Shown one piece after another: positions 19,790 to 63,988 of a DNA stretch of 64,000 bases. A program made the position numbers and the translations under genes. The DNA comes from Microbacteriaceae bacterium. GTDB lineage: Bacteria > Actinomycetota > Actinomycetes > Actinomycetales > Microbacteriaceae. How positions within the stretch are numbered: the first letter of the stretch is position 1; each line of letters starts with the position of its first letter. The DNA lies in the NCBI GenBank assembly GCA_025464975.1, contig JAODMT010000011.1, positions 62,001 to 126,000 on the forward strand. Direction: 5' to 3'. Under the pieces are notes generated by a model. It was not told the DNA's origin, ran no database searches, and saw only the letters and a program-made list of their open reading frames with translations.

Positions 19790-20056
19790 ATGACTGACAG
19801 CACAAACCGTCCCGGGGGAAATGGGCAGGACAGGCTAGAACAGGACCGGGTCGAACGGGACAGAATTGAACGGGACCGGGTCGAACGGGTCCGGGTCGAA
19901 CAGGACAGAATCGAACCGGATGGCACGTTCACCGATGAGGAATACGAGGAAGGTACCAACACCGTCGAGCACGGGCAGGAACACTCGGAGGGCGGCGATT
20001 ACACCGACACCGACTTCACTGAAGACGAGGCTGATCGCGCAAAGCGTCACGACTGA
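19790..20056 (+). CDS. Small charged protein with pentapeptide tandem repeats (88 aa)
   Basis: ATG 19790 with GGAGG at 19781. After MTDSTNRPGGNG come six consecutive pentapeptides of the form (Q/R)DR(V/I/L)E (residues 13-42). An acidic tail follows (DGTFTDEEYEEGTNTVEHG, GGDYTDTDFTEDEADR). The repeat is encoded by a 15-bp tandem array and could form a single charged helix. No family is recognised. It is third of the acidic trio and ends just before a hairpin that may terminate it. Confidence 0.6.
   Translation: MTDSTNRPGGNGQDRLEQDRVERDRIERDRVERVRVEQDRIEPDGTFTDEEYEEGTNTVEHGQEHSEGGDYTDTDFTEDEADRAKRHD
19825..19914 (+). repeat. 15-bp tandem array, six units, inside a coding region
   Basis: Units such as ACGGGACCGGGTCGA and ACGGGACAGAATTGA run in phase with codons and encode the six charged pentapeptides of the 88-residue protein. 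Units differ at a few positions, mostly in the last six bases. Confidence 0.85.
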
Positions 20057-20064
20057 GTCGAGCA

Positions 20065-20096
20065 GCACGCGTCTAGACCGGCACGCGTCTAGACCG
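20065..20096. repeat. Two perfect 16-bp direct repeats
   Basis: GCACGCGTCTAGACCG occurs twice without gap (20065-20080, 20081-20096). Each unit contains the palindrome GTCTAGAC. It lies between convergent genes and runs into the last codons of the minus-strand nuclease-helicase gene. Confidence 0.9.
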
Positions 20097-23000
20097 GCAC
20101 AGGCCCCGGCCCGATCGGGGCCTGTGCCGCGTCCTCCGCAATCCGGATGAAGGCACTCAGCCGCGCTAGCCCCTCGACCGTAGGCGGAAGCGTCTCTGTG
20201 ATGGCGGGCGAGTACACGAGATACGCGGCCCACTGGGCCCGGGATACTGCGACGTTCAGTCGGTTGGCAAGCAGCAGGAACTCGAGCCCCCGAGGCACGT
20301 CCGCCGCCGAGGAGGCCGCGAGGGACACAATCGACACCGCGGCTTCCCTGCCCTGAAACTTGTCGACAGTCCCCACCGGAACGTCGACGAAGCCCGCGTC
20401 ATCCAGAGTGTGACGCACCAGTTCGACCTGCGCGTTGTATGGGGCCACGACGATGATGTCGCTCGGGCGAAGCGGCACGGTCGACCCGCCGGACGACCAC
20501 GCGCGATCGATCAGGTCTCTGACGATGGTTAGGACCGCTTCTGCCTCCTCGACCGAGGATGTGGAGTTGTCGGTGTGTGGAGTCGGAACACCGTGCACTC
20601 CCGGATCGATTCCGTCGAGCGTGCGGTCGGAGTCGTGAGCGTGAAGCCGTCCCTCGTAGGAAAGCAGGGAAACCGGGGCGCACACCGCGGGGTGCATGCG
20701 GTAGCTAACCCCGAGGAAGAACCCGAATTCCGCTGGGAGCACATCGTGCCCGTCGCTGAGCCAGCCGAGAGCGGATTCGTCCACCGGTTCCGGGTGCGAG
20801 CCCTGACTCACCTGCGGGAGTTGCTGCGGGTCGCCGAGCAGAAGCAGCCGTTTCGCGCCGACGGATGCGGCGATCGTGCTCGCGAGAGAGAACTGGCCCG
20901 CCTCATCGACCACGAGAAGATCGAGGGAGCCGCGCGGAATGCGGCCGGCGTTGCTGAACAGCCAGGCCGTTCCGCCGATGACGAAGCCGGGCCGGGCGGT
21001 GAAGTCCGGCAGCGATTTCTCGGTGAGTTTTGTCCAGGACACCGAGGTCGCGCCATCTCCGCTGCGCGGGATCTTGCCCACCAGATCCCGGTCGAGTCCC
21101 GCCTCGACCACCTTCGCGAGCATGGTCTCTACCGCCGCGTGTGACTGCGCGACGACGCCGATCCTCCACCCGTGGTTTCGCACGAGGTCGGCGATCACCT
21201 TCGCCCCGTTCCTAGTCTTGCCGGTGCCGGGCGGCCCCTGCACGGCAAGGTACGAGCGGTCGAGGCACAACAGGTAGTCCCGAATCGGGCCGGCCACCTC
21301 GGTTGTCCCCGTTGTCGGCGGCGGCTGGGAGCCCGGGACGACACGGGGAGGCTCGCGACGCAGCAGGTCGAGTGCGGCGTTCGGCAGCATCTCCGGTAGC
21401 GCGTCGAGCACCTCCCGACCCCACTCCGAGATGGCCGTGACCTGCGTGCCCGGGTCCGGTGGGATGCCGGGTGTCAGCGCGACCGGAAGCTGGTCGTACG
21501 CCTCCGCTCCGCCCTTCAACCGTTCGGTGAGGAAAACGGATCCATCCTCGTCGATCTCGATGCTCGACCGGTTGTGGGCACGCCGGGATCCCGGATCGCT
21601 CGGTTCGATCGGCGGAAACGGCTCGTCGTAGAGCACGTACGGTTGCTCGGCACCGCCGAACGAGCTTCCCGGCGCCGCCGCCCCGTGCAGACGGAGCGTG
21701 CGCGACTCGGTGCGCGCCTTGCCGAGGATGCCCCACCGGCGTACCACTTGTGCCGACTCGACAATGAAAGTGTTTCGCGTGTCGGCCCACTCTTCCAATG
21801 GGTTGGCCAGCCGCGAAAAGTGGTCCCACCAGAAGCTCTTACCCTCCCGGCGGTGGTAATCGATGGCGGCCGAGGCAAGCGCGATCGCGGTCTGATCTGA
21901 CGTGCGCCCGACAAGAGGGAAACCCTCGACGATCTGGGCGAGCTCAAGGTAGACGGGGTCGGGGTCCGGGATGGCGCGGGCCGGCGTCTCCTGCGCGGAC
22001 AGGCCGGGCGTGATTCCGTGTTCCAGAGCCCTGCCTAGCAACCAGTCGCGCAGTGCGAGGGTGGAGATGCAGTCGTATTCGTTGTAGTCCGCGATTTGCC
22101 CGAGAACGACAGCCGCGGCATCCGTCTGCCCGGACCCAGCGAGGTCTCGCGATCGAACGTACTCGGTGATAGAGTCCGCGGCGGTCGAGACCCCCTCCCG
22201 CGCGCGCTCCCCCATGTACAGCGGTTCGAGCTTCTTGAGCGAGTAGCTGCGACTTCCGATGCGCAGCGATTGCTTCACGATCGGGTACAGGTCCACGAGA
22301 ACGGCATTTCGCAACAGGTCATCCACCGCCGCCTCGCAGGCCCCGTGCCGTGCGGCGATGCTGAGCAGGTGACTGCGTTCGTAGGACGCGTAGTGGTAGA
22401 TGTGCATCCCGGGATGGCTCTTTCGCCGCTCCGCGACGTAGTCGAGAAAGTCCATCAGGGCCCGCTTCTCGCCGGCGAGGTCATGCGCCCAAAAGGACCG
22501 AAACGTCTCATCCGGTTCCACGAGGCCGAAGAGATAGTCGAGGCCCCATGCGGTCCCCTCCTGATAGAGCGGGTCTCCCTCAAAATCGAAGAAGATGTCT
22601 CCGGCGTCGGGAGCCGGCAAGGCCGCGAGGGCGTGTGGGTTCATCACTCTCCAGGCCAGCATGGGCTTGCGCTGGCCGGGGTCGATCTGCACGGACTCGA
22701 GCTGCACGGAGGCCTGTTCGCGGAGGGTGCGCAACGTGGCATCCGCGAGCCCGGGCACCGGGCTGTCGCGCCGGGCGAGCTGATCGATGGTTCGGACGTC
22801 GGCCTCGATGAGCCTTGCTCGCTGGGTCACCCGCATTCCGGCGACCAGTAGCACGTCGCGATGACTCTGCACCTGCTCCTCGCAGGCCGCACATCGACCG
22901 CACGCGGTGTAGCGCGGGTCGCCCCACTCGGTGGCGGCGGCATCCGCCACCCGTTCGTCGATGATCTGCTCGAGGCGTGCCCGGCGCTTTCGGTAGACCG

Positions 23001-23547
23001 GTGCGATGTCGGAGAGTCGGTGCACACTCGTGCTGTTGTCGCCGAGCACCAGGTACACGTGCTCACCGGTTGGGATGCCGAGCCGCTGGAGTTGCTCGCT
23101 GTAGGCAGCGAGCTGCAGCAGTGCGGTGACCTTCGCGTGCCTGGCAAGCTTGGTGTCATAGACCTCGTAGGCGCCGTCCAATGTGCGGATGATGAAGTCG
23201 GCGAAGCCAAGAAACCGACCGTCGAAGAATGCCGCTTGATACACGACCGGGGCCCCGGCTGCGAGGGCGGAAGCGGTTGCGGCGACCTCCACCGACGGAT
23301 CGGCGGAGTGGTGCGGCCGCTCGATTTCTACGACCGGACCCTGATCGCGCAGGGTGTGCAGGAATCGTTCCTCGTGGATGTCACCGAGCCGAGCGGTGCG
23401 TTCGAGCATGTCGTCGATCGTCTCGGGAGGACGCTGGACTCGACCGAGTCGTGCGTCGAGCTTTCGCATCGTCGCCCACTCGCAGTTCGAGGCAGCTGTC
23501 AGGTCCGAGGCGGAATACACCACCGTGCCGTTCTCGAGCAGGAACAC
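20089..23547 (-). CDS. TM0106-type RecB-like nuclease fused to a Dna2/Upf1-like helicase
   Basis: 1152 residues in three parts. Residues about 1-230 are a RecB-like nuclease: GFADFI (Asp117), EVYDTK (128-133) and QLAAY, plus the Cys pair CGRCAAC (216-222). Residues about 315-505 are an RNase H-like exonuclease domain: FFDFEGDP (319-326), HYASYE and YNEYDCIST. Residues about 755-1130 are a superfamily 1 helicase: GPPGTGKT (771-778), VVDEAG (879-884), GDPQQLPQV, DKFQGREA and NVAVSRA. It probably unwinds and trims DNA or RNA ends in repair or defence. The architecture is known in actinobacteria, but the biological role is poorly defined. It is monocistronic, preceded by a 16-bp tandem array. Confidence 0.9.
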   Translation of the reverse strand: MFLLENGTVVYSASDLTAASNCEWATMRKLDARLGRVQRPPETIDDMLERTARLGDIHEERFLHTLRDQGPVVEIERPHHSADPSVEVAATASALAAGAPVVYQAAFFDGRFLGFADFIIRTLDGAYEVYDTKLARHAKVTALLQLAAYSEQLQRLGIPTGEHVYLVLGDNSTSVHRLSDIAPVYRKRRARLEQIIDERVADAAATEWGDPRYTACGRCAACEEQVQSHRDVLLVAGMRVTQRARLIEADVRTIDQLARRDSPVPGLADATLRTLREQASVQLESVQIDPGQRKPMLAWRVMNPHALAALPAPDAGDIFFDFEGDPLYQEGTAWGLDYLFGLVEPDETFRSFWAHDLAGEKRALMDFLDYVAERRKSHPGMHIYHYASYERSHLLSIAARHGACEAAVDDLLRNAVLVDLYPIVKQSLRIGSRSYSLKKLEPLYMGERAREGVSTAADSITEYVRSRDLAGSGQTDAAAVVLGQIADYNEYDCISTLALRDWLLGRALEHGITPGLSAQETPARAIPDPDPVYLELAQIVEGFPLVGRTSDQTAIALASAAIDYHRREGKSFWWDHFSRLANPLEEWADTRNTFIVESAQVVRRWGILGKARTESRTLRLHGAAAPGSSFGGAEQPYVLYDEPFPPIEPSDPGSRRAHNRSSIEIDEDGSVFLTERLKGGAEAYDQLPVALTPGIPPDPGTQVTAISEWGREVLDALPEMLPNAALDLLRREPPRVVPGSQPPPTTGTTEVAGPIRDYLLCLDRSYLAVQGPPGTGKTRNGAKVIADLVRNHGWRIGVVAQSHAAVETMLAKVVEAGLDRDLVGKIPRSGDGATSVSWTKLTEKSLPDFTARPGFVIGGTAWLFSNAGRIPRGSLDLLVVDEAGQFSLASTIAASVGAKRLLLLGDPQQLPQVSQGSHPEPVDESALGWLSDGHDVLPAEFGFFLGVSYRMHPAVCAPVSLLSYEGRLHAHDSDRTLDGIDPGVHGVPTPHTDNSTSSVEEAEAVLTIVRDLIDRAWSSGGSTVPLRPSDIIVVAPYNAQVELVRHTLDDAGFVDVPVGTVDKFQGREAAVSIVSLAASSAADVPRGLEFLLLANRLNVAVSRAQWAAYLVYSPAITETLPPTVEGLARLSAFIRIAEDAAQAPIGPGPVPV
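20096..20128. terminator. Bidirectional hairpin between convergent genes
   Basis: GGCACAGGCCCCG (20096-20108) pairs perfectly with CGGGGCCTGTGCC (20116-20128), with a 7-base loop. It can terminate the acidic-protein operon. For the minus-strand gene it falls inside the last codons, so it would form before the stop codon is read. Confidence 0.65.
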
Positions 23548-23589
23548 TTTGGCCTTCCTCGTACGGGCGGTCGGTTGTCGTGGGTGTGC

Positions 23590-23717
23590 TAGTTCAAACG
23601 CCTGCTAGTCCAGGCGCTTATCAGTCCGAGCGCCTGCCAGTCTGGACGCTTGCCAGTCTGGACGCTTGCCAGTTCGGACGCTTGCCAGCTCGCACGCTTG
23701 TCAATTCAAGAGTGCAC
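23590..23717. repeat. 16-bp tandem array, about eight units, between two minus-strand genes
   Basis: The consensus unit is CAGTCTGGACGCTTGC. Units 4 and 5 (23638-23669) are identical and the outer ones are increasingly diverged. The last unit covers the stop codon and final codons of the phosphotransferase gene. There is no spacer between units, so this is a minisatellite and not a CRISPR. Confidence 0.9.
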
Positions 23718-24670: not shown

Positions 24671-25486
24671 TTGTCGCAAACTGTGCCGCTTGGCGCCAAA
24701 TCGCAGGGTGAGCATCCCCAGCCCTCCGCGCCGCGAGCGCCGTTGGTCGAGACCCCGTTGGTCGAGACCCCGTTGACCCGTCGACAATTGCGCGGTCGAC
24801 CGGTGCCCCTTGTGCAGCCCCCTGCCACGGTTCCATCGCCGTCCGCCACCCAGACGGCCGTTTCGCGGGCACGGGACTTGGCCACGGCGCCGCCCGAGTC
24901 GTCCGCGGTCGCGCTTACGCCTGCCGCAATCACCACTCCCGCACTCGCCACTCCTGCGATCACAACTCCTGCGATCACGACCTCTTCGAGCACAACTCCT
25001 GCGATCACGACCGCTACACGCACGACCTCTGGAGCTCGCCGGCGGCCGAGATTGGCAAAAGCCGCCACCAAGGCCCACGTGGGTCGCACGGTCGACGGCC
25101 CGGTCTATCGATCCACTTTCGTCGTCCCCGAGGCGGTGCCGGTCGTTTCGGTCGACGTGGCACCTTCGGTTCTGGTCGTGTGGCTCTTCGCACTGCTTCC
25201 CTTGGCTCAGCTCGCAGTCATCGTGCTGGTACTCGCCCCGCTCCATCTCCTCCCCGGTGTTGGCTATGCGCTTCTGGTCGCCCCGTCTCTCGGGCTGCTG
25301 CTGTCCGCGGCGCTTCGTCGAGCGCAGGGGCAGGATAAGCACTCGACCGGACCGATGGCGTTTGCCGTCGTGCCGCCGCTCTACCTCTCCGGCAGGACGG
25401 TCACGCTCTCGCCGGCGGCCATGGCCCCGGTGATCACCTGGCTTCTACTCGCCGGCGTCACCGCGGCGGTCTTGCTCTTCGCCTAG
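24671..25486 (+). CDS. Hypothetical membrane protein with Thr/Ala/Pro-rich repeat head
   Basis: 271 residues from a TTG start at 24671 (GGGAGG at 24661). Residues 1-140 are low-complexity: VETPL twice, then ATPAITTPAITT-type repeats. The body has three hydrophobic segments (VVWLFALLPLAQLAVIVLVL, YALLVAPSLGLLLSAAL, ITWLLLAGVTAAVLLFA). The head would be cytoplasmic or extracellular and disordered. No family is recognised. It converges with the J-domain gene. Confidence 0.6.
   Translation: MSQTVPLGAKSQGEHPQPSAPRAPLVETPLVETPLTRRQLRGRPVPLVQPPATVPSPSATQTAVSRARDLATAPPESSAVALTPAAITTPALATPAITTPAITTSSSTTPAITTATRTTSGARRRPRLAKAATKAHVGRTVDGPVYRSTFVVPEAVPVVSVDVAPSVLVVWLFALLPLAQLAVIVLVLAPLHLLPGVGYALLVAPSLGLLLSAALRRAQGQDKHSTGPMAFAVVPPLYLSGRTVTLSPAAMAPVITWLLLAGVTAAVLLFA
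24740..25020 (+). repeat. 15-bp in-frame tandem repeats in the membrane protein head
   Basis: CCGTTGGTCGAGACC occurs twice exactly (24740-24769). Further on, ACTCCTGCGATCACA-type 15-mers recur between about 24926 and 25020. Both keep the reading frame. Confidence 0.75.
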
Positions 25487-25494
25487 GCACCCGG

Positions 25495-25553
25495 TCTTCG
25501 TCGGGCTGTCTTCGTCTGGCTGTTATCTCGTCAGGCTGTCCTGATCGGGCTGG
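25495..25553. repeat. Degenerate ~15-bp tandem array between convergent genes
   Basis: Four units of the type TCTTCGTCTGGCTGT, ending TCCTGATCGGGCTGG, fill the space between the stop at 25486 and the convergent stop at 25563. Confidence 0.6.
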
Positions 25554-28339: not shown

Positions 28340-28446
28340 GTGGACAACCGGGTCTGACCGTTCCGTGTGGGGAATTGGATCTGCGGGAAACCGGATCTGT
28401 AGGGAACCGGGATCCGTGCGGAACTGAATCTGTGCCGAACCGAACC
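28340..28446. repeat. Degenerate 16-bp tandem array between divergent genes
   Basis: Units GTGGGGAATTGGATCT, GCGGGAAACCGGATCT and GTGCGGAACTGAATCT (15-17 bp each) repeat about five times from 28367. A related unit, GTGGACAACCGGGTCT, lies at 28340. The array occupies the shared upstream region of recQ and the hypothetical gene. Confidence 0.75.
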
Positions 28447-30691: not shown

Positions 30692-31246
30692 ATGACGGAC
30701 GCATCCGGACGCTCTCCGGGCGACGGGGACAAGACCACTCGGTCAGATGGGTTCTACGACGACCCGCTGCAGCGGGCATCGTCGGCCAAGCAGACCGTGA
30801 CGAACGACGCGGTCGCCGGTCACACGGTCTGGGGAGGCGCAGGCGACGGTAACGACGGTCCGACGGGCGGCGCAGCGCGCGAGTCGGAGCCGATCCTCGA
30901 CGAGCATGGCCGCGGAGGCGAACGGGTCGAGCTGGACAGCGACTCGCGGGACGCCGGATCCACGAATGTGAGCGGCGATGGTGTGGGAAACGCCAGCGCA
31001 AGCCACGGCGACGTGAGAAACGGCGGCGTGAGAAACGCCGACGCGGGCGCCGACAGTCCGGACATAACAGGCACACCGCACGACGCGCTGCCCAATGAAC
31101 AGGTGGAGTACGCCATGTCGTTTGCCGACTACGACGCTCTTACCGATGACGACGAGGACGCGGTAAACATTTCCGAAGGCGACGGGCCGTTTCTCGAGGC
31201 AAGCGACGACCCGATCGCGGGCGCAACGCTTCGAAAGAAGAAATAG
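30692..31246 (+). CDS. Acidic, low-complexity hypothetical protein (184 aa)
   Basis: Strongly acidic and Gly/Asp/Ser/Asn-rich, with few hydrophobic residues until a short conserved-looking patch YAMSFADYDALTDDDEDAVN and a basic end (ATLRKKK). It includes the near-repeat DVRNGGVRNADA. ATG 30692 follows GGGAGTTGAC. No family is recognised. It is co-directional with and 9 bp before the next acidic gene, and similar in character to the trio at 19.2-20.1 kb. Confidence 0.6.
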   Translation: MTDASGRSPGDGDKTTRSDGFYDDPLQRASSAKQTVTNDAVAGHTVWGGAGDGNDGPTGGAARESEPILDEHGRGGERVELDSDSRDAGSTNVSGDGVGNASASHGDVRNGGVRNADAGADSPDITGTPHDALPNEQVEYAMSFADYDALTDDDEDAVNISEGDGPFLEASDDPIAGATLRKKK

Positions 31247-31525: not shown

Positions 31526-31550
31526 CCCGCGGGTCGAGACCCACCCCGCA

Positions 31551-31629
31551 GGTCGAGTAGGTCGCGCAGCGACCGTATCGAGACCCACCCCGCGGGTCGA
31601 GTAGGTCGCGCAGCGACCGTATCGAGACC
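31551..31629. repeat. Two copies of the 35-bp palindromic dispersed repeat, 44-bp spacing
   Basis: Copies at 31551-31585 and 31595-31629 begin GGTCGAGTAGGTCGCGCA and end CCGTATCGAGACC, each an imperfect palindrome. Relatives occur at 55.4, 56.3 and 58.6 kb. They lie between convergent genes, where they could form terminator-like hairpins. Confidence 0.9.
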
Positions 31630-33230: not shown

Positions 33231-33285
33231 GAGTCCCTCCGATCGCTCCATTTCCCACCATCACAATATTCGCCGTGAGCCCGGT

Positions 33286-33315
33286 TGTCCGTAAGCCTCC
33301 TGTCCGTAAGCCACC
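33286..33315. repeat. 15-bp direct repeat, two units
   Basis: TGTCCGTAAGCCTCC and TGTCCGTAAGCCACC are adjacent in the divergent region between the antiporter and phosphoketolase genes. Confidence 0.8.
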
Positions 33316-35897: not shown

Positions 35898-36635
35898 ATG
35901 CCATGGGGCGCGATCTTTAAGAACCGTGCGGATGCCGGTCGACGGCTCGCCGCCGCACTCGACGGCTTCGCCGCGCCCAACACGATAGTTCTCGCGCTGC
36001 CTCGCGGCGGGGTGCCGGTCGCCCGGCCGGTCGCCGATGCCCTCGGCGCTCCGCTCGATGTGGTGGGTATCCGCAAACTCGGCAGCCCGCGGCATCCGGA
36101 GTATGCCGTCGGCGCAATCGGCGAGCAGGGAGTGCGAATCGTTGACAGCGCCGCCGCGCGCTCGGTGGGACTCGGAGAAGCCGAACTCGCCGAAGTCGAG
36201 GCGCGGGAGCGGGTGGAACTCGCTCGGCGGTTGCGCAGCTACCGCGCCGGACGGGAACGCCTCGACCTCACCGGAAGAGTCGCGATTGTGGTCGATGACG
36301 GTGTGGCCACCGGTGCCACCGCCCGCGCGGCGTGCCGGGCGGTGCGTCAACTCGGGGCGTCCGAAATCGTGCTCGCGATGCCGGTCGCTCCGCCGGACTG
36401 GGAGAGGACTCTCGCCGGCGAGGCAGACGCATTCGTCGCGGTAGCCACCCCGAGCAACTTCTGGGCGGTCGGTCAGTGGTACGCCGACTTCAGCCAGACC
36501 ACCGACGAGGAGGTGATTGCCTGCCTTGACCGGGGGCCGCGGCAGCCGCAAGCGGGGACGGAGCGGCCGGGTTCGGAGTCGGAGCGGCCGGGTTCGGGGA
36601 CGGAGCGGCCGGGTTCGGAGTCGCCGGGGGTCTGA
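35898..36635 (+). CDS. Phosphoribosyltransferase-fold protein with repetitive C-terminal tail
   Basis: 245 residues. The type I PRTase PRPP loop is VAIVVDDGVATGATARAAC in the middle; the N-terminal flexible loop segment is ALPRGGVPVARPVADALG. Such PRPP-loop proteins lie near central carbon genes, and substrates are unknown. The last 30 residues are a repeated (G/E)(T/S)ERPGS motif from a 21-bp tandem array and are probably disordered. It is 31 bp after phosphoketolase on the same strand, so likely co-transcribed. Confidence 0.85.
   Translation: MPWGAIFKNRADAGRRLAAALDGFAAPNTIVLALPRGGVPVARPVADALGAPLDVVGIRKLGSPRHPEYAVGAIGEQGVRIVDSAAARSVGLGEAELAEVEARERVELARRLRSYRAGRERLDLTGRVAIVVDDGVATGATARAACRAVRQLGASEIVLAMPVAPPDWERTLAGEADAFVAVATPSNFWAVGQWYADFSQTTDEEVIACLDRGPRQPQAGTERPGSESERPGSGTERPGSESPGV
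36555..36617 (+). repeat. 21-bp in-frame tandem array at the end of the phosphoribosyltransferase gene
   Basis: Three units (GGGACGGAGCGGCCGGGTTC type) alternate GGGACG and GAGTCG beginnings, so units 1 and 3 are identical (a 42-bp higher-order period). A partial fourth unit leads to the stop. Confidence 0.85.
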
Positions 36636-36734
36636 CTCCGGGGGTCCGACTCAGGGGACGAAATCGCATCCTCCCGGCGCGCACGAACAGCCGAAGGTGT
36701 CCCCTGGCGAACCTACCGGGCGATGGGCGTCCGA

Positions 36735-36813
36735 GTCGGCGGAGTTTCTGGTCGGCGGAGTTCCGGGTCGGCGGAGGTGCTGGTCACCGAGGTCGCAGTC
36801 AGCGGAGGTCTCG
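36735..36813. repeat. 16-bp tandem array between convergent genes
   Basis: GTCGGCGGAGTTTCTG, GTCGGCGGAGTTCCGG and GTCGGCGGAGGTGCTG are followed by two more diverged units (15 and 16 bp). It lies between the phosphoribosyltransferase and metallo-hydrolase stops. The rest of the 206-bp gap shows nothing further. Confidence 0.85.
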
Positions 36814-45413: not shown

Positions 45414-45550
45414 CGCTCGCCTCTCGCGCGGTGCCCGCGTTCGGTCCGCGCGCCGCGTCTCGCTGCACACGGTCTTCGCCGCGTCCGGTGCACTGCCGCT
45501 AATGAACCGCGCCTAATGCGTGGGTCTACTTCTTCGCCCCTGCAGCTTTC

Positions 45551-45615
45551 CTCTACTGCTTCGCTCTACTGCTCTCCTCTACTGCTTCGCCCTACTGCTT
45601 CGCTCTACTGCTCTA
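45551..45615. repeat. 13-bp tandem array, five units
   Basis: CTCTACTGCTTCG, CTCTACTGCTCTC and CCCTACTGCTTCG repeat without spacers and run into the last codons and stop of the minus-strand MarR gene. The period is not a multiple of three; the gene covers only the last unit. Confidence 0.9.
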
Positions 45616-47897: not shown

Positions 47898-50800
47898 CTA
47901 CCGAATGGCGCCGGCGAGCGAGCTACTTTCGATCCGGCTCGTGCCGTGCTCATCGACGGCCACATGCAGCTTCGACAGAATCTGCTCCTTCATCGACCCC
48001 ACATGACTGATCAGGCCGATGGTGCGCCCGCCGGCTCGCAGTCCGTCGAGGGTGCCCATGGCGATTTCGAGCGTCTCGTCGTCGAGCGATCCGAAACCTT
48101 CGTCGATAAACAGGGTGTCGAGACGGATGCCGCCGGCCTGGTTGGTGACCACCTCGGCGAGCCCGAGGGCCAGGGCGAGGGAAGCGAGGAAGGTCTCACC
48201 GCCGGACAGCGAGTGAGTGGCCCGCGATCGTCCCGTGTGTTCATCGAGAATGGCGAGACCCAGTCCGGATTGCGTGTTTCGGTACTGCACGGAGTCGTCG
48301 TGTTCGAGGGTGAAGCGTCCACTCGTCATCACCCGCAGACGCGCGTTGGCCGCGGCGACGATCTGCTCCAGTTGGGCCGCGAGCACGTATGTCTCGAGCC
48401 GCATCCGGCGCGTGTTCGGTTCCTTGCCCTGCACTGCGTTGGCGAGTTCGCTCAGTTGTTCGAACTCGGTCTGCAGCGACGCGGATGCCGAGAGCTGAGC
48501 GCGTGCGGCCGCCACCGTGCGGGTGGCTTCGTTTACTCGTTCGGTGAGGGTGCTGAGGGTGCCGAAGGCGTCGTCCCGGTACCCGCGGAGCGCGGCGAGG
48601 AGTTCCGCCGCGTCATCAGGCTCCACCGGTTCGGTCGGCAGATCGGCGAGTTCGGGTTCAGCAAGGGTGAACCGCGCGGTCGCCACTTCCTGGTCGAACG
48701 TGCGGACGAGGGCCTCGAGTCGCGCGAGTTCGGCCGGGGCGAGGCGCGCCGCGGCGACTGCATCCTCGAGTTCCTCGAGGACTTCGAGTGCGCCGAGGAC
48801 TTCGAGTGCGCCCAGCTCGACAAGGCCGTTAAGGCGGTCGAGGCCGTTAAGGCGGTCGAGGTCGACAAGGCCGTGAAGGCCGTCTGGGTCGTCAAGCCCG
48901 CTGGCCAGAACGCCATTGAGCCGGTCCGCTTCCGCCGCGTCGACGAAGCCCTGCTCGAGCAATTGAGCGACCAACACCGTGACGGCTCGGAAGAACGAGC
49001 GCTGGGCGGCACGTGTCTCCTCGATCGCGGCCTGGAGGGCCTTCGCCGCGTCCAGGCCGAGCTGCAGTTGTTCGACGCGGGCTGCCACCGACTCGTGCGC
49101 TCCCCGCTCGGTCTCGACCAGCTTCTGTGCCGCCTCGCGGGCGACTCGCTTCTCCGTGACCAGTCGTGCGGCGCTGTCGCGAGCCGTCTGTAGTTCGGCG
49201 AGTTCGGCCCGGGCGTTGTCCAGCTCTGCCTTGAGCTCGGTGATGCGGGTTTCGAGTGCCGTGGCTCGCTCGCCCGCTGCGACAGCCTTGGTTAGCGCGT
49301 CGTGAGCAGACGCCAGTTCCACCGTGAAGTCCTCCGGCGACTTGCTCTCGGTTCGCGCGGCTGTCTCGGCGAGCCGGGTCGCGAGTTCCGAACTCTCTGC
49401 TGTCTTGCGGTCGAACGCCAGGCGCAGGTCGTCCGCATGCTGCCGAGCGGCGTCGATGTCGTCCTGGGTGACGGGTTCGGCGTCGGTTGTGGCCGGTGCC
49501 GGGTGGGCTACGGAGCCACACACCGCGCACGGTTCGCCGTCGACGAGGGCACTCGCGAGTTCGAACGCGTGGCCGGCGAGGCGCTGCTCCATGAGCGACT
49601 GGTGATGAGCGACCGCGGCGAGGTGCACCCTTCCTGACTCAAGCTCCGCGGAACGCGTGATGGCGAGTCGGACTTCGAGTGCTCGGGCGAGCTCGGCCGC
49701 CTCGAGTGCGGCGGAGAGCCGAGCCGTGGTTTCTCTTGCCGCCGGTTCGCCGGCGGCCGTGATTCGGGCGAGCTGGAGTTGCGCCGATTCGTCGTCTATT
49801 TGTCGCGGCAGTGCCGCGATGTTCGCGGCGGCGGCGTGAACTGCTGTTTCGATCAGTGCCAGTTCCGCTTCGGAGGAATCCGCTTCGGTGCCGAGTCGTG
49901 CCAGGGAGAGCTCCTGGGCCAGTGCTCGATCGAGCGAGCCGAGTTGACGGCTGCGGCGATCGATCGCGGTCGAGAGCGCGAGAGCGTCTTTCTGCTCCGC
50001 TTTATCCTCAGCCTGCCCTGCAATACGCTCCTCCCGCTCCGCCCTACCCTCACCCGGGTCCGCCCTACCCTCACCCGGGTCCGCCCTACCCTCAACCTGC
50101 TGCGGCCCGTCGGCGGCGGAGTGCGGGGCATCCCCATCCGGCACGTCGAACAGTGCAAACGCTGCTCGAGCCTCGCGTTCGGCCGACTTCGCGGACCGCA
50201 GCGCGTCATCCGCTTCACGCCGCGCGGTCACGTGGGGCCACACGTTCGAAGCGCGACGGGCGACAGCGACCGTGTCCCGAACGTCATCGATCTCTGAGGC
50301 ACGCTCAAGCAGACCGGCGAGACTGCTTCGTGCCGCGTCCCGTCGGCGCTGGAGCGCGTGAACGGCGGTGAGGCGTCGGTGTTCCTCGTCGGTCGCGGAC
50401 AGGGCGGCGTCGCGTTCCTCAGCTTCAGATGACGCGGCCGATCGCTGCTCCTGGATTGAGGCCAGCCCGTCCTCGAACCACGCGAGATCGGTCACGGTCT
50501 GCTCGGTCCGGCTCTGCTCGGTCCGGGTCTGCTCGGCCAGGCTCTGCTCGGTCTGGGTCTGCTCGGTCCGGGTGCCCTCTGTCTGCAGCAGATGCCTCAG
50601 TTGGGCGGCGAGCTGGGCGATTGCCGCCCGTGACCCGCCCACTTGCGCTTCGAGCGCCTTGCGTCGCTCGGCGATGATTGTCTCGTAGTCGGCGAAACGC
50701 TGCGAGCCGAAGAGACTGCGCAACACGGACTGACGGTCTTCGTTGTTGGAGCGCAGGAACTCCTGAAAGCGGTTCTGTGCTAGCAGAATCACCTGCAGAA

Positions 50801-51248
50801 ACTGGTCCTTGGTGAGCCCGACCAGTTCGAGAAGGCCCTTGCCGACGTCGACGGGACCCGCGAACATTCCCTCCCAGGCGTCGTCGGCCCGCCGGAAAAG
50901 TTCGGCCGTCGGTGGCGCCTTCGTCGTGCCCTTTCCGTTCTTCTTGGCGCGCTCGAATTCCGGGGTGCGGTGCACCCGGTAATCGGTGCCCTCGACGCTG
51001 AAGACGAGTTCGACGAAGGTTGGATCCTCTGGGGTGGCGTGGTCGCTGCGCAGCTTCTGTTGGGATCCCTCGTATCGCGGCACGCTTCCGTACAGCGCGT
51101 AGCAGACGGCGTCGAGGATGCTGGACTTGCCGGCGCCGGTCTTGCCGGTGATGAGGAAGATTCCGTCGTCGTCGAACTCCTCAAAGTCGACGAACTGCTC
51201 GTGACGGTAGGGTCCGAAACCCGCGAGTCGGAGTGACTTGATTTTCAT
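47898..51248 (-). CDS. sbcC: SbcC exonuclease ATPase subunit
   Basis: 1116 residues, SMC-like. N-terminal Walker A GKTGAGKSSILDAVCYALYG (35-54), long coiled coils, zinc-hook CxxC in GEPCAVCGSVAHP near residue 575, then the C-terminal signature HSLSGGETFLASLALAL and Walker B DTLFIDEGFGSLD. With SbcD it opens DNA hairpins and trims double-strand ends. The coiled coils contain three tandem-repeat insertions (EQT-, GRADPGE- and RLNGL-type), which make it longer than usual and may disturb heptad phasing. It overlaps sbcD by 4 bp. Confidence 0.95.
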   Translation of the reverse strand: MKIKSLRLAGFGPYRHEQFVDFEEFDDDGIFLITGKTGAGKSSILDAVCYALYGSVPRYEGSQQKLRSDHATPEDPTFVELVFSVEGTDYRVHRTPEFERAKKNGKGTTKAPPTAELFRRADDAWEGMFAGPVDVGKGLLELVGLTKDQFLQVILLAQNRFQEFLRSNNEDRQSVLRSLFGSQRFADYETIIAERRKALEAQVGGSRAAIAQLAAQLRHLLQTEGTRTEQTQTEQSLAEQTRTEQSRTEQTVTDLAWFEDGLASIQEQRSAASSEAEERDAALSATDEEHRRLTAVHALQRRRDAARSSLAGLLERASEIDDVRDTVAVARRASNVWPHVTARREADDALRSAKSAEREARAAFALFDVPDGDAPHSAADGPQQVEGRADPGEGRADPGEGRAEREERIAGQAEDKAEQKDALALSTAIDRRSRQLGSLDRALAQELSLARLGTEADSSEAELALIETAVHAAAANIAALPRQIDDESAQLQLARITAAGEPAARETTARLSAALEAAELARALEVRLAITRSAELESGRVHLAAVAHHQSLMEQRLAGHAFELASALVDGEPCAVCGSVAHPAPATTDAEPVTQDDIDAARQHADDLRLAFDRKTAESSELATRLAETAARTESKSPEDFTVELASAHDALTKAVAAGERATALETRITELKAELDNARAELAELQTARDSAARLVTEKRVAREAAQKLVETERGAHESVAARVEQLQLGLDAAKALQAAIEETRAAQRSFFRAVTVLVAQLLEQGFVDAAEADRLNGVLASGLDDPDGLHGLVDLDRLNGLDRLNGLVELGALEVLGALEVLEELEDAVAAARLAPAELARLEALVRTFDQEVATARFTLAEPELADLPTEPVEPDDAAELLAALRGYRDDAFGTLSTLTERVNEATRTVAAARAQLSASASLQTEFEQLSELANAVQGKEPNTRRMRLETYVLAAQLEQIVAAANARLRVMTSGRFTLEHDDSVQYRNTQSGLGLAILDEHTGRSRATHSLSGGETFLASLALALGLAEVVTNQAGGIRLDTLFIDEGFGSLDDETLEIAMGTLDGLRAGGRTIGLISHVGSMKEQILSKLHVAVDEHGTSRIESSSLAGAIR
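48777..48860 (-). repeat. Two 18-bp direct repeat pairs inside sbcC
   Basis: GAGGACTTCGAGTGCGCC occurs twice (48777-48812) and GCCGTTAAGGCGGTCGAG twice (48825-48860). They encode the LEVLGA and RLNGLD duplications in the distal coiled coil. Confidence 0.9.
50038..50100 (-). repeat. 21-bp tandem array inside sbcC
   Basis: Three units beginning TCCGCCCTACCCTCACCCGG, in frame, encode repeats of GRADPGE. The third unit is diverged at its end. Confidence 0.9.
50491..50580 (-). repeat. 15-bp tandem array inside sbcC
   Basis: Six units of the type GTCCGGGTCTGCTCG, in frame, encode an EQT(R/Q)T-like pentapeptide array in the ascending coiled coil. Confidence 0.9.
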
Positions 51249-54788: not shown

Positions 54789-54838
54789 GGAAAGGTGCGG
54801 CCTGTGGACAAAGAATTTGAGCAGATCTTGCACGTGCC

Positions 54839-55020
54839 CCAGGGTCGACGCGGCCCTGTCCCAGGGTCGACGCGGCCCTGGCCTAGTGTCGGGGCGGTCC
54901 TGGCAAGGGTCGCCGTCGTCGTCGCCCAAGGGGCGGCGCCATCCCCGCCGACGGTGGTCGCCCAAAGGGTCGCCGCACGTTGAGTCCAAGGGTCGCCGCC
55001 ATCCCCGCCGAGGGTCGCCA
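54839..55020. repeat. 22-bp tandem array, at least five units, degenerate further on
   Basis: CCAGGGTCGACGCGGCCCTG-type units of exactly 22 bp run 54839-54948. After that, related fragments (AAGGGTCGCCG, CCATCCCCGCCG) recur to about 55020. No protein-like frame covers it. Apart from the SOS box, the 368-bp gap between the DUF222/HNH gene and the redoxin holds nothing else I recognise. Confidence 0.8.
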
Positions 55021-55380: not shown

Positions 55381-55452
55381 GGTCTCGATAAGGGCGCTGA
55401 GCGCCCTACTCGACCCGCAGAGCCATGCGGGCGCTGAGCGCCCTACTCGACC
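55381..55452. repeat. 35-bp palindromic dispersed repeat, one full and one partial copy
   Basis: A full copy at 55381-55415 (GGTCTCGATAAGGGCGCTGA start, CTACTCGACC end) is followed by a truncated copy (GGGCGCTGAGCG...CTACTCGACC, about 55428-55452). It lies just after the redoxin gene. Confidence 0.88.
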
Positions 55453-55661
55453 CGCAGAAGAGCGGAACGAGACCCGCGGAAAGCCCTACTAGCCAGTACA
55501 CGCCCCCAAAATGGGCACCGGCAAGCTGCGATGGGTAGTGTCGCAACATCATTACTTCACCATTCCCCGCCGACTGGGTCGCGCTCTTCACTCGAACGCC
55601 GCCGGTCCCCATTCCCACTCCCCTCCTTCTCAGCATCCTCGTCGCCGCAGCTGTCCTCAGT

Positions 55662-56293: not shown

Positions 56294-56438
56294 GGTCTCG
56301 ATACGGGCGCTTCGCGCCCTACTCGACCCACGGGGAGCGATTCGGCGAGGTCTCGATACGGGCGCTTCGCGCCCTACTCGACCCACGGGGAGCGATTCGG
56401 CGAGGTCTTGATACGGGCGCTTCGCGCCCTACTCGACC
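56294..56438. repeat. Three tandem copies of the 35-bp palindromic repeat, 55-bp period
   Basis: Copies at 56294-56328, 56349-56383 and 56404-56438 (GGTCTCGATACGGGCGCTTC start) are separated by 20-bp spacers CACGGGGAGCGATTCGGCGA. The third has TCTTG for TCTCG. The spacers are also nearly identical, so the whole 55-bp unit was duplicated. Confidence 0.95.
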
Positions 56439-56557
56439 CACGGACACCGCGGCATGGGAGGCGGGCGCTGTGCCGCCAATGGGGGCCAGCGATGAGCGGT
56501 CGCCGACCCCTATGGTCGAATTGCCGCCCCGAATCGGCATCGAAGGACATTTACCCG

Positions 56558-58618: not shown

Positions 58619-58743
58619 GGTCTCGATACGCGCGCTTCGCGCCCTACTCGACCTGCGAAAAAGCCCCTGCCCTACTCGACGCGCGGGAAGGCCCCTGCCC
58701 CACTCGACCCCGCGAGAAAGGCCGCGCCCTACTCGACCCGCAG
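58619..58743. repeat. 35-bp palindromic repeat plus three decayed half-copies
   Basis: The full copy at 58619-58653 is followed by fragments of the form GCCCTACTCGACCCGC at roughly 58664-58685, 58700-58720 and 58726-58743. The last fragment supplies the final codons and TAG stop of the flavin monooxygenase gene. The 333-bp gap between the two flanking genes holds this cluster and the 77-bp element; nothing else is seen. Confidence 0.8.
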
Positions 58744-60105: not shown

Positions 60106-60111
60106 ATGGTC

Positions 60112-61908
60112 CTAACTGGTTGCGAGCGACGCGGTTGAACGGGCAGAACTGGTTGCAACAGACGCGGATGAGTCGGTAGGACTGGTCGCGACGAACGCAG
60201 TCGTGCCAGCGGGGCTCGCTGCGACGGACGCGGTCGCGCGAACGGGCAGCTCCGGAACTGCAGCGAGAAGGGCCCGGGTGTAGTCGTGTTGCGGCGCGAA
60301 GAACACGTCGTCGGCGCTGCCCGACTCCACGATCTGACCGTCCTTCAGAACGAGCACGTCATCACTCACGTGGTAGACCACGCCGAGATCGTGACTGATG
60401 AAAATGAAGGACAGCCCCAGGCGCCGCTGCAGGTCGGCGAGCAGGTCGAGAACTTGGGCCTGGATCGACACGTCGAGGGCGGAGACCGGCTCGTCGAGCA
60501 CGATGATCTGTGGCCGCGGCGCGAGGGCACGGGCGATGGCAACACGTTGACGTTGGCCGCCCGAGAGGGTCAGCGGACTCCGATCGGCGAACCGCCGCGG
60601 CAATCCGACCGAATCGAGCAGCTCGCCGACACGGTCCTGCCGTTGCGCCCGGGTGAGCGACTCCCCCGCCCGGAGCGCGTCGATCAGGATGTCGCTCACC
60701 GAGTGCCGCGGGTCGAACGACGACAACGGGTCCTGGTAGACCACCTGGATGCGTCGCCGCCGAGCGCGACGGTCACGCTCGGGCAGCGCGGACCAGGCTT
60801 GGCCGTCGAGCAACACCTCGCCCGCGTCCGCGTCGGTCAGGCCGAGCGCGAGCCACGCCGTCGTGCTCTTTCCGGATCCGGACTCTCCGACAATCCCGAG
60901 CGTGGTTCCGGCCCGGAGGCGGAAGGAGACATCCCGAACGACGGTGCGACGCACTCGGTCCGGGCCACGGTAACTCTTCACGAGACCGATGGCCTCGAGC
61001 GCTGGGGCGACGGGCGCGTCGTGGTGCGGCGCTGAACCAGGCGCTGAACCATGCTGCGGAGAATCGAACGACGCCGCAGCCCCCCCATCCCCAGCACCGG
61101 CCGCCGACAGGCGCCGGCCCTTCGCCGCCGCGACCGGCACAGAGTCGAGCAGGCGCCGGGTATACGGATGACGCGGGTTGCCGAGCACCTCGTCCACCGA
61201 CCCGTACTCGACCACCTCGCCGTCGCGGAGCACGAGCACGTCGTCCGCGATCGAGGACACCACCGCGAGGTCGTGCGAAATGATTATGAGCCCGTGGTCG
61301 CGCGACTTCAGGTCGTGCAACAGGGCGATGATCTGGGACTGCACCGTGGCATCCAGAGCCGTCGTCGGCTCGTCGGCGATCAGCACCCGGGGGTTCAGCG
61401 CCAACGCCTGGGCGATGAGTGCTCGTTGACGGAGGCCGCCGGAGAGTTCGCCGGAACGCTGCCGGGACCGCAGCTGCGGATTGGGCACCCCGGCCGCAGC
61501 GAGGCTCTCGATCACCCTCACCTGCCGTTCCGTCTTGCCGCGCACCCCGTGCACGATGAGCGCCTCCTCGATCTCCTGCCCGATCGTACGAAGCGGGTCG
61601 AGCGAGACGAGGGCGTCCTGCAGCACGAATCCGACGTCCTTGCCGCGCAGTGCCCGCCAGTCCCGTTCGGAATTCGTGCTGACGTCCGCCCCGAGAATCT
61701 CGAGTCGGTCAGCCTCGACGACGGATTCCGCACCGGTCAGTCCGACGAGGGTGCGGGCGATGACGCTCTTGCCCGACCCGGACTCGCCGACGATCGCGAG
61801 GGCGCGCCCGGTCTCGAGCCGGAAGGAGACGTTCCGCACCACCGGGCCGGTCGCCCCGCTGTGCGGAAAGGAGACGGTGAGGTTGGTCACCTGCAGCAGC
61901 GTCGACAT
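60112..61908 (-). CDS. Double-domain oligopeptide-type ABC transporter ATPase
   Basis: 598 residues from ATG 61908, sharing one base with the stop of the permease before it. There are two complete ATPase domains: Walker A GESGSGKS at 41-48 and 341-348, signatures LSGGLRQR (155-162) and LSGGQRQRVAIARAL, and Walker B ADEPTTALD and LDEPVSALD. The linker (260-300) is Gly/Ala/His-rich. The last 45 residues are an 11-residue Ala/Thr/Ser repeat from a 33-bp tandem array, absent from relatives. The first signature has Leu in place of Gln, normal for DppD-like halves. Confidence 0.93.
   Translation of the reverse strand: MSTLLQVTNLTVSFPHSGATGPVVRNVSFRLETGRALAIVGESGSGKSVIARTLVGLTGAESVVEADRLEILGADVSTNSERDWRALRGKDVGFVLQDALVSLDPLRTIGQEIEEALIVHGVRGKTERQVRVIESLAAAGVPNPQLRSRQRSGELSGGLRQRALIAQALALNPRVLIADEPTTALDATVQSQIIALLHDLKSRDHGLIIISHDLAVVSSIADDVLVLRDGEVVEYGSVDEVLGNPRHPYTRRLLDSVPVAAAKGRRLSAAGAGDGGAAASFDSPQHGSAPGSAPHHDAPVAPALEAIGLVKSYRGPDRVRRTVVRDVSFRLRAGTTLGIVGESGSGKSTTAWLALGLTDADAGEVLLDGQAWSALPERDRRARRRRIQVVYQDPLSSFDPRHSVSDILIDALRAGESLTRAQRQDRVGELLDSVGLPRRFADRSPLTLSGGQRQRVAIARALAPRPQIIVLDEPVSALDVSIQAQVLDLLADLQRRLGLSFIFISHDLGVVYHVSDDVLVLKDGQIVESGSADDVFFAPQHDYTRALLAAVPELPVRATASVAASPAGTTAFVATSPTDSSASVATSSARSTASLATS
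60115..60246 (-). repeat. 33-bp in-frame tandem array at the ATPase gene end
   Basis: Four units beginning ACTGGTTGCGAGCGACGC (60115, 60148, 60181, 60214) encode an 11-residue (S/F)VATSxxxSxA repeat. The outermost unit (60214) is the most diverged. Confidence 0.85.
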
Positions 61909-62888
61909 CAGCGGCCCTTCTTCGGTTCGAATTGCTTCTGCAGAAAATGCCCGATCGCGGTCGCGCTGAGTGCCGTCACGGTGATGAACAGCCCGGGGAA
62001 GAATGCGATCCACCAGGCGACCTGGATGTAGCTTCGACCGTCGGCGAGCATGGTGCCCCATTCCGCCGTCGGCGGTTCCGCGCCGAGTCCGAGGAAGCCG
62101 AGGGCAGACGCCCAGACCACGGCCTGGCCGATCCCGAGGGTCAGGATCGCCACGAGCGGGCGAAGTGTGTTCGGGATGACCGTGGCCCGCAGTCGACGCA
62201 GCGGCGACCAGCCGAGCGCTCGGGATGCCTCGACGTAACCGGATTGCCGCACCTGGAGCACCTGGCCGCGGAGGATGCGCGCGTAACCCGGGATCGATCC
62301 GATGCCGACCGCGACGGCGGCCGGTCCGATGCCGCGGCCGAGTACGACGATGAGCACGAGAGCGAGGAGCAGACCGGGGAACGCGAACAGGATCTCGATG
62401 AACCGGCTGGTCACGGCATCCGCGATTCTGCCGCCGAGGCCGGCGATCAGTCCGAGCACGAGGCCGCCGATCACGCCGATCAGGGTGGCCAACACGCCGA
62501 CCCAGAGCGACTGGCGGGCGCCCCAGACGATGCGGCTGAATTCGTCCCGTCCGGACTGGTCGGTGCCGAACAGGTGGGCGAGCCCCGGCTTCTGGAAGGC
62601 GTTTGCCGGGTCGACCGCGTACGGGTCGGACGGGGCGACCAGGTTCGGCGCGATCAGGGCAGCGAGCAGGAACAGCGCGAACAGGATCGCGAGAATCGTG
62701 CCGGGTTGCGCGGCGAGATCGCGAACCCAGCGCGGCCGGGGGCGGGTCCTGGGATCGCTTGTTGCGGCGGCGGCGGTTGTCGCGGCGGCAGTAGTCGCAG
62801 GGGCAGCATTTGTTGCGTCGGTAGCGGTTGTTGCAGCGGCGGCGCCCGGCGCGTGGGCCGAGGCCGCGGTTTTCGATACGGCATTCAT
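61908..62888 (-). CDS. Oligopeptide-type ABC permease, DppC-like
   Basis: 326 residues. The first 55 are an Ala/Thr low-complexity head (AAAATTATDATNAAPATTAA) ahead of the normal DppC N-terminal helix (GTILAILFALFLLAALIAP). Family motifs: YAVDPANAFQKPGLAHLFGT, DQSGRDEFSRIVWGARQSL, and the EAA loop EASRALGWSPLRRLRATVIP. It pairs with the following DppB-like protein, overlapping it by 4 bp. About six membrane helices are present. Confidence 0.92.
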   Translation of the reverse strand: MNAVSKTAASAHAPGAAAATTATDATNAAPATTAAATTAAAATSDPRTRPRPRWVRDLAAQPGTILAILFALFLLAALIAPNLVAPSDPYAVDPANAFQKPGLAHLFGTDQSGRDEFSRIVWGARQSLWVGVLATLIGVIGGLVLGLIAGLGGRIADAVTSRFIEILFAFPGLLLALVLIVVLGRGIGPAAVAVGIGSIPGYARILRGQVLQVRQSGYVEASRALGWSPLRRLRATVIPNTLRPLVAILTLGIGQAVVWASALGFLGLGAEPPTAEWGTMLADGRSYIQVAWWIAFFPGLFITVTALSATAIGHFLQKQFEPKKGR

Positions 62889-63988
62889 CGGCTGAGCCTC
62901 GGATCGATGATCGGATAGAGGATGTCGACGATCGCGTTGACGACGACGTAGACGGCGGCGATCACGACGACCACGCCGATCACAACTGGGATGTCCCGCG
63001 ACAGCACCGCGGAGAGCAGCACGCGTCCGATTCCCGGCCTCGCGAACACGACCTCGGCCACGACGGCGCCGCTGAACAGTGCGCCGATGGCCCAGCCGGT
63101 GAGCGTCACGCCGGGCAGGAGGGCGTGACGCAACGCGTGTCCGAACCGCACGCGCAGATCGCTCGCCCCGCGAGCCCTGGCCGAGGTGACGAATGGCTGG
63201 GCCAGTGCGTCCTCAAACGACTCGCGCATCACCTGGGAGAGGAATCCGGCAATGGGGATCGCGAGGGTGAGTGCCGGGAGGAACAGTCCGGTGAGCCCTG
63301 TCCCGCCGGCGACCGGGAACCAGCCGAGGCCGATCGCGAAGACGACGAGCAGCATGATCCCGATCCAGAAATGCGGAAGGGAGGCGAGCACGATCTCGAC
63401 CGAACGGCCGATGCGCTCGACAATCGGGCCGCGACCGGCGGTCGGAACCGTGATCAGCAGCGAGATGATCCAGGCCAGAAGGACGGACGCAACGACGAGC
63501 TGCACCGTGGAGGGCAGCTGCTCACCGATCACCGTCGTCACCGGAATCTTCAGCTGGTAGGAGGTACCGAAATCGCCCCGTACTGCTCCGCCGAGGAAGT
63601 TCAGGTACTGCACGAGCACCGGTTGGTCGAGTCCGAACGCCTTGCGCGTGGCATCCACCACCGCGGCCGATGGACTACCGGAGGTGCCGAGGATGAGCAG
63701 AACCGGGTCGCCCGGGATGAACCGGAGCAGTGCGAAGGTGAGGGTCGCCACGGCCCACAGCACGAAGATCGCGCCGGCCAGCTTGCCGAGCACCCGACGA
63801 ATCACGCCGGCGGTCCGGCGGAGTGCCGCGTCGTCGACTTCGTGCGGCGGCTCCCCCGCGAGGGACACCGAACGGGGCGCGAGCGTGCTGGCCGTCGCTG
63901 CGTCGCCGGCGACCGTGCTGGCCGTCGCCGCCTCGCCGGTCACCGTATTGACGGTCGCTGCCTCGACCGTCACTCTCTCGACCCTCAC
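62885..63988 (-). CDS. Oligopeptide-type ABC permease, DppB-like (5' end uncertain)
   Basis: 367 residues from a GTG at 63988, but the frame stays open through the last 12 bases of the window, so the true start may lie outside. The head is a repeated 10-residue (A/V)ATASTVAGD-type segment from a 30-bp array. The DppB core follows: AIFVLWAVATLTFALLRFIP, PGDPVLLILG, GDFGTSYQ, and the EAA loop FEDALAQPFVTSARARGASD. It lies upstream of the DppC-like, ATPase and monooxygenase genes in one operon. No binding-protein gene is in view; it is probably beyond the window. Confidence 0.9.
   Translation of the reverse strand: MRVERVTVEAATVNTVTGEAATASTVAGDAATASTLAPRSVSLAGEPPHEVDDAALRRTAGVIRRVLGKLAGAIFVLWAVATLTFALLRFIPGDPVLLILGTSGSPSAAVVDATRKAFGLDQPVLVQYLNFLGGAVRGDFGTSYQLKIPVTTVIGEQLPSTVQLVVASVLLAWIISLLITVPTAGRGPIVERIGRSVEIVLASLPHFWIGIMLLVVFAIGLGWFPVAGGTGLTGLFLPALTLAIPIAGFLSQVMRESFEDALAQPFVTSARARGASDLRVRFGHALRHALLPGVTLTGWAIGALFSGAVVAEVVFARPGIGRVLLSAVLSRDIPVVIGVVVVIAAVYVVVNAIVDILYPIIDPRLSR
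63879..63988 (-). repeat. 30-bp in-frame tandem array at the start of the DppB-like gene
   Basis: Units at 63879-63908 and 63909-63938 differ at four positions (GCGACCGTGCTGGCCGTCGC type). A third at 63939-63968 and a partial fourth are more diverged. They encode the Ala/Thr/Val repeat head. Confidence 0.85.

Follow-up and report, generated by a model that had tools for sequence, protein, structure and literature searches.

Short tandem arrays of apparently unrelated sequence are scattered through a 64-kb stretch of DNA from a Microbacteriaceae bacterium (contig JAODMT010000011.1, positions 62,001 to 126,000), which is referred to in its full length as the window. The arrays lie in and between genes that include a nuclease/helicase gene (20089 to 23547, minus strand), a phosphoribosyltransferase-domain open reading frame (ORF; 35898 to 36635, plus strand) and an SbcC-like gene (47898 to 51248, minus strand). 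Taken together they probably represent a dense cluster of minisatellites, or variable number tandem repeats (VNTRs), in which short head-to-tail duplications were followed by gain and loss of whole units and were filtered by selection for the reading frame. The arrays were called with Tandem Repeats Finder (TRF) and counted at a score of at least 50, the list including some weaker ones; length differences are given relative to a sister species, G010.

18190 to 18222, intergenic array, 17 bp x 1.9; same length in G010
19790 to 20056, plus strand, 88-amino-acid ORF with a 15-bp array (19826 to 19920) encoding a pentapeptide repeat; array length unchanged in G010
20065 to 20100, array of 16 bp x 2.2 that spans the stop codon of the nuclease/helicase gene; 36 bp here, 84 bp in G010 (+48 = 3 x 16)
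22682 to 22710, coding array, 15 bp; 15 bp longer in G010
23598 to 23700, intergenic array, 16 bp x 6.4; 65 bp longer than in G010, with an alignment gap of 64 = 4 x 16
24740 to 24775, coding array, 15 bp x 2.4; identical length in G010
24924 to 24978, coding array, 15 bp x 3.7; 45 bp (3 x 15) longer in G010
25494 to 25552, array of 14 to 15 bp in a gap between convergent genes; no counterpart found in G010
28377 to 28442, degenerate 16-bp array in a gap between divergent genes, TRF scores 45 to 47; shorter in G010, with gaps of 49 and 41
31005 to 31043, coding array, 15 bp x 2.6; 75 bp (5 x 15) longer than in G010
33273 to 33312, weak 15-bp array in a gap between divergent genes, TRF score 45; 1-bp length difference in G010
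36553 to 36618, coding array, 21 bp x 3.1, at the 3' end of the phosphoribosyltransferase-domain ORF; 42 bp (2 x 21) longer than in G010
36624 to 36657, 14 bp x 2.4 array at a gene end; 14 bp longer than in G010
36735 to 36785, 16 bp x 3.2 array in a gap between convergent genes; 48 bp (3 x 16) longer than in G010
45525 to 45612, 13 bp x 6.7 array in a gap between convergent genes; 43 bp longer than in G010, not a whole-unit difference by our criterion
48766 to 48900, coding arrays of 18 and 9/18 bp in the SbcC-like gene
50038 to 50094, coding array, 21 bp x 2.7, SbcC-like gene
50488 to 50573, coding array, 15 bp x 5.7, SbcC-like gene
54838 to 54912, 22 bp x 3.5 array, called intergenic
60114 to 60186, coding array, 33 bp x 2.2; same length in G010
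61028 to 61051, coding 12-bp duplication; 12 bp shorter in G010
62767 to 62806, coding array, 15 bp; 15 bp longer than in G010
63879 to 63965, coding array, 30 bp x 2.9

Census and clustering of the arrays

The window holds 26 arrays. In 40 shuffles, in which codons were preserved inside genes and dinucleotides in the gaps between them, the count averaged 1.05 and never exceeded 4, which rules out chance or composition as the source of the arrays. Twelve are coding, nine were called intergenic, four are palindromic and one sits at a gene edge; most have units of about 10 to 18 bp in two to seven blurred copies. The first-pass annotation had described about sixteen arrays, and each of its 16 coordinates has a TRF array at the site or no more than about 40 bp away. 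The periods agree as well, apart from the array at 25495, to which TRF assigns 14 bp with indels instead of 15, and the arrays that the annotation placed at 28340 (28377 to 28442 by TRF) and 33286 were recovered as weak ones with scores of 45 to 47. Arrays beyond that list include those at 18190 (17 bp), at 22682, 24924, 31005 and 62767 (15 bp), and at 36624 (14 bp), 61028 (12 bp), 48821 (9/18 bp) and 56736 (6 bp), together with four that contain a distinct palindromic element (31534, 55395, 56294 and 58641).

Genes were called with our own codon-based scorer, which missed at least one of them (19790 to 20056). The array at 19826 was thus entered as intergenic and provides the period 15 among the nine called-intergenic arrays (6, 13, 14, 15, 16, 16, 16, 17 and 22 bp), although it is really coding, as the first-pass annotation had it: G010 has kept the 88-amino-acid ORF around it open, and 12 of the 18 differences between the two genomes fall on third codon positions. 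The pentapeptide repeat of this ORF is charged.

All 26 arrays lie beyond position 18,000, where a sample of the same genome (40 stretches of 20 kb, 109 TRF arrays) predicts 6.3 (negative-binomial p 1.9e-6, a value that is overstated because the segment was chosen for looking rich). The maximum in any of the 40 stretches is eight arrays, and the window has 13 between 44 and 64 kb. Density varies widely among relatives, with 40.6 arrays per 100 kb in the window, 13.6 in the genome sample and 7.8, 29.8 and 21.4 in the congeners G004, G012 and G007, respectively. Five order-level outgroups have 12.5 to 72.5 per 100 kb, with shuffles reaching up to about 10, so that uniqueness to the genus is ruled out, the actinobacterial outgroups being array-rich too. 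Escherichia coli K-12 and the Sinorhizobium meliloti replicon pSymB (300 kb each) have 4.0 per 100 kb.

The first-pass annotation knew of no named system of this kind, but minisatellites (VNTRs) are one. As in these, the copies stand head to tail, their units exceed microsatellite size and their number exceeds chance. That 3n units predominate among the satellites of bacteria has been published (PMC6749651). Like the bacterial VNTRs described there and in M. tuberculosis (PMC12817950), the arrays combine unrelated head-to-tail units, whole-unit variation in copy number and 3n periods in genes; they differ in that units are concentrated at 10 to 18 bp with a sharp drop above, and in that arrays of mostly two to seven blurred copies are packed into one 46-kb segment. 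A transposed satellite family, with one unit at many loci, was not seen: the units of this genome and of G012 look unrelated by eye, without clustering. Satellites of Burkholderia derived from microsatellites share short periods (12, 14 and 16 nt), including 16, but they derive from units of 6 to 8 nt and form families (PMC6749651), whereas TRF gives no 8-bp period for the 16-bp arrays of the window and the units look unrelated.

Unit size and its upper limit

The first-pass annotation had proposed that arrays between genes are mostly of 16 bp and that a preferred duplication step accounts for this. Sixteen is the period of four of the eight intergenic arrays that it named and of three of our nine, and in the genome sample outside the window (35 intergenic arrays) period 15 accounts for seven, and 16, 13 and 12 for three each. 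Any preference for 15 to 16 bp could conceivably have been produced by the thresholds of detection or by the eye of the reader. For a perfect repeat of two copies TRF reaches a score of 50 at a unit length of about 13 bp, so that shorter units are cut off, and a laxer criterion indeed adds many units of 9 to 12 bp. Because TRF thresholds remove short units, two detectors of opposite bias were applied to a pool of four congeneric genomes (this genome, G004, G012 and G007; 2.28 Mb): detector 1 tolerates no more than a single mismatch per unit length and is stricter on long units, while detector 2 requires an exact self-match of 13 bases, which is laxer on long units and stricter on those below 13. 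The detector 1 spectrum excludes the GTCGAGTAG palindrome rows and one G007 family, and that of detector 2 excludes 24 rows (11 from this genome, 13 from G007).

Intergenic counts were 23, 15, 13, 21, 22, 14, 7, 2, 0, 0 and 4 for periods 12 to 22 with detector 1, and 3, 6, 6, 10, 8, 14, 17, 12, 5, 1, 1, 2 and 4 for periods 10 to 22 with detector 2. Both thus find many units of 12 to 17 bp, a plateau that declines abruptly above 17 bp; intergenic units of 13 to 17 bp outnumber those of 18 to 22 bp by 85 to 13 and by 61 to 13, respectively. Shuffles yield zero to one array per intergenic period of 12 bp or more. Given this agreement, an artefact seems improbable. In E. coli (300 kb) detector 2 finds no unit of 12 to 18 bp and detector 1 finds four coding arrays of 12 bp and one intergenic array of 16 bp; in pSymB detector 2 finds three, all of 15 bp. 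A clear plateau was seen in this genus alone, where the sample is largest.

A specific 16-bp step was not borne out, the pool holding 22 intergenic arrays at 16 bp against 23 at 12 and 21 at 15 with detector 1, and a strict genome-wide intergenic peak at 16 bp was found neither in the genome sample nor in the pool. What stands of the proposed step is that its size is limited, with a plateau and a drop above it. Period 16 is the commonest intergenic period with detector 2 (17, against 14 at 15 and 12 at 17), and among non-3n periods, which cannot stem from missed genes, it is modestly the highest with both detectors (for detector 1, 22 against 15, 13 and 14 at periods 13, 14 and 17). Being only modestly highest, it forms the top of a hump and not a separate step. 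In genes the peak falls at 12 bp with detector 1 (95, with about 23 expected), followed by 55 at 15 bp, and at 15 bp with detector 2 (40, against 16 each at 12 and 18). Detector 2 also records 22 intergenic units of 30 to 39 bp against five of 25 to 29 bp, which are possibly doubled units of 15 to 19 bp.

A held-out check, for which an expectation had been set beforehand on other stretches, gave weak support in loci from nine other congeners (172 kb, some overlapping, six repeated units dropped). Five intergenic arrays have units of 13 to 17 bp and none of 18 to 22 bp; four of the five come from G010, three of these four also occur in this genome, and the remaining one of the four is a 7-bp repeat taken for 14. 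Coding arrays with periods of at least 13 bp are 3n in 13 of 13 cases there. A species-specific step of 14 bp in G007, suggested by 15 arrays at that period, was dropped, as these belong mostly to one dispersed repeat family. This family (loci L111, L159 and L168) has the core GTTGTGCAGGAC and occurs as direct and inverted 14-bp pairs.

The ceiling near 17 to 18 bp is the unexplained part of the case. If it holds, it is new here together with the array density in the genus; no report of such a ceiling turned up in a literature search whose coverage left out most subscription journals. The arrays themselves are of an already known kind, and the predominance of 3n units is already published.

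Turnover between relatives and the reading frame

The sister species was compared with this genome over 51.5 kb of alignment at 94.7% identity, comprising pieces of the window and two further stretches, with arrays taken from either genome. Since the G010 assembly is incomplete (64%), arrays without a counterpart were excluded from the counts; in a first pass this applied to 14 of 32 window rows, among them the duplication at 61028, which was later placed. Among 29 comparable arrays, 14 differ by whole units within 1 bp (seven coding and seven called intergenic), nine are identical in length, one lies within 2 bp and five differ otherwise. Of the 16 coding arrays nine are of unequal length in the two genomes, each of them by a multiple of 3 and seven by whole units. 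Among the 13 called intergenic, ten differ by more than 2 bp (seven by whole units within 1 bp, three otherwise), one differs by 1 bp and two are identical, one of these being the coding array at 19826. Arrays of either genome (score at least 40, margins of about 12 bp) are touched by 26 of the 39 indels of at least 9 bp, while the arrays of this genome with their margins cover 2,153 of 52,051 bp (4%); several of the 13 indels outside arrays lie at contig joins. A second pair, G003 and G006 (86.4% identity), contributes eight arrays, of which four differ by whole units, three otherwise and one not at all. Whole-unit differences in copy number between close relatives, as seen between this genome and G010, are the mark of VNTRs, and the earlier suggestion of a continuing duplication process that acts on unrelated sequences and is filtered for frame is supported.

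The rule that periods of coding arrays are multiples of three, also put forward in the first-pass annotation, is followed by all 12 arrays called coding in the window at a score of at least 50, by 61 of 64 in the genome sample and by 22 of 24 in G007, and is less strict in some relatives. In the genus pool (periods of at least 13 bp, at most one mismatch) 3n units make up 70 of 81 coding but 28 of 98 intergenic arrays (Fisher p 2e-15). The ORF missed around the array at 19826 makes the intergenic counts at 12, 15 and 18 bp upper bounds.

Turnover also bears on the alternative that the arrays are retained because they are useful, for example as sites where regulators bind, as terminators or as switches for phase variation. 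In M. tuberculosis, switching of copy number in promoter tandem repeats has been published and phenotypes have been proposed for it (PMC12817950), and the same nuclease/helicase gene end bears arrays with different units in different species, of 16 bp in this genome and G010 and of 17 bp in G003. Against a function stand the lack of length conservation relative to G010, units that look unrelated by eye, and a density per base that is lowest in the divergent gaps where promoters lie: per 100 kb, intergenic arrays number 62.9 in convergent, 32.5 in tandem and 25.0 in divergent gaps, a preference expected if arrays are tolerated rather than used. Unit dimers are also not more hairpin-prone than shuffled units, being slightly less foldable (mean z +0.23, RNA energies), and hairpin-driven slippage was rejected on the same ground. 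A functional explanation therefore has little to recommend it. At the nuclease/helicase gene end the 17-bp array of G003 (x 4.8, L064:2271-2352) is 68 bp (4 x 17) shorter in G006.

Origin of the duplications and related repeats

In the scheme that we favour, short stretches, mostly of about 10 to 18 bp, would first be copied in head-to-tail orientation at unrelated sites, some of these births with microhomology of at least three bases and others without. Whole units would then be gained and lost, for which strand slippage is the simplest route, with point mutations blurring the copies, and selection would act as a filter that lets mostly 3n steps survive in genes. Intergenic arrays would be commonest at facing gene ends, where there is no promoter to break, and the ceiling might reflect how far a looped-out or displaced strand can physically extend.

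Births were approached through strict two-copy exact duplications, a criterion that excluded 53 intergenic and 41 coding cases. Of the 30 intergenic duplications 13 have at least three extra matching bases, as do 11 of the 26 coding ones, compared with 8.5% of simulated blunt duplications. A few of the 10-bp cases could be coincidental, and among the 13 intergenic ones some could be what is left of longer arrays or of shorter units. Births thus look mixed in their routes.

Several observations count against slippage filtered by selection. Seventeen of the 30 intergenic duplications have zero to two extra matching bases, so that slippage on existing microhomology is not the sole birth route, and slippage alone does not predict the drop at 17 to 18 bp. 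In G010 seven coding and two called-intergenic arrays are unchanged in length, and 5 of the 29 compared differ by something other than whole units. The frame rule is weaker elsewhere (27 of 33 in G012, 9 of 12 in G004, 4 of 9 in the outgroup G016), and between G003 and G006 three of five coding differences are not multiples of 3, with gene calls that rest on 40 kb. As the scorer missed at least one gene, some "intergenic" arrays of 12, 15 and 18 bp may be coding, and for the structural variants of M. tuberculosis pe/ppe genes an in-frame bias was credited by the authors to the mechanism and not to selection (PMC12817950).

The origin of tandem repeats from non-repeated DNA has been called unknown in print (PMC6954433). 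In the same source, the E. coli topA R168C mutator is described as producing de novo tandem duplications of 2 to 19 bp independent of existing repeats, a range near the ceiling observed here. It is conceivable, if not our expectation, that births arise from misrepair of nicks or displaced flaps as in such mutators, with slippage acting only later; the many births without microhomology would fit. The size limit and births partly without prior repeats are shared with the mutator, whereas the genomes studied here are natural ones that display a long-term outcome under selection, and TopA residues R35 and R168, which are mutated in the E. coli strains, are unchanged in this genome and the congeners covered (11 of 11 and 12 of 12, respectively). 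Mutator residues of the E. coli type are thereby rejected as an explanation of the ceiling, in a comparison that covered TopA and no flap or nick enzyme. Of the experimental results found, the topA range comes closest to the ceiling; it may serve as a lead, not as a test.

End joining by Ku/LigD, which would fill staggered breaks and leave short tandem duplications, appears very improbable. Ku is present in this genome and in 8 of 12 congeners, but G004 has Ku and few arrays, and no Ku match was found in G012 (99% complete), which is nonetheless the richest of the three sampled congeners (intergenic arrays, 105 per 100 kb), nor in G003, G006 and G010 (64 to 90% complete), absences that come from draft assemblies and are thus not proof. 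MutS was found in none of the 20 genomes searched and NucS in 18. Loops of 15 bases exceed what MutS handles; for this reason, and because the array-poor G004 likewise lacks MutS, its absence was rejected as the cause. NucS does not correct indels (PMC8228993).

A bolder proposal, which we consider unlikely, is that the genus has a constitutive duplication process whose ceiling of about 17 to 18 bp is physical and depends not on sequence but on an intermediate of replication or nick repair, and whose rate varies several-fold between congeners. If true, this would be what nature offers in place of the topA duplication mutator known from the laboratory, and the process would leave its traces in genomes twice, frame-free between genes and frame-filtered within them. 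A genus with many young arrays, an upper size limit and a density that varies between species is a place to measure births directly. Should the ceiling be real beyond the genus, it would point to a particular intermediate; should it not be general, the arrays would still be a plain illustration of frame selection on one mutational process.

The SbcC-like gene contains several coding arrays, and 15 loci were found in relatives, at 38 to 66% identity. They lie in records titled as Microbacteriaceae and similar genera, although among the listed relatives there is no other genus from this genome's own family.

The four palindromic arrays (31534 to 31629, 55395 to 55458, 56294 to 56443 and 58641 to 58741) contain a dispersed palindrome (GGTCTCGATACG ... 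CTACTCGACC) that sometimes occurs in tandem. A search for the Y1 transposase (PF01797) that marks repetitive extragenic palindromes and their associated tyrosine transposases (REP/RAYT), which concerns the palindromic arrays only, gave no match in this genome, with 5 of 14 controls positive. The palindrome pattern has 43 exact matches in the genome, compared with none for the reversed control.

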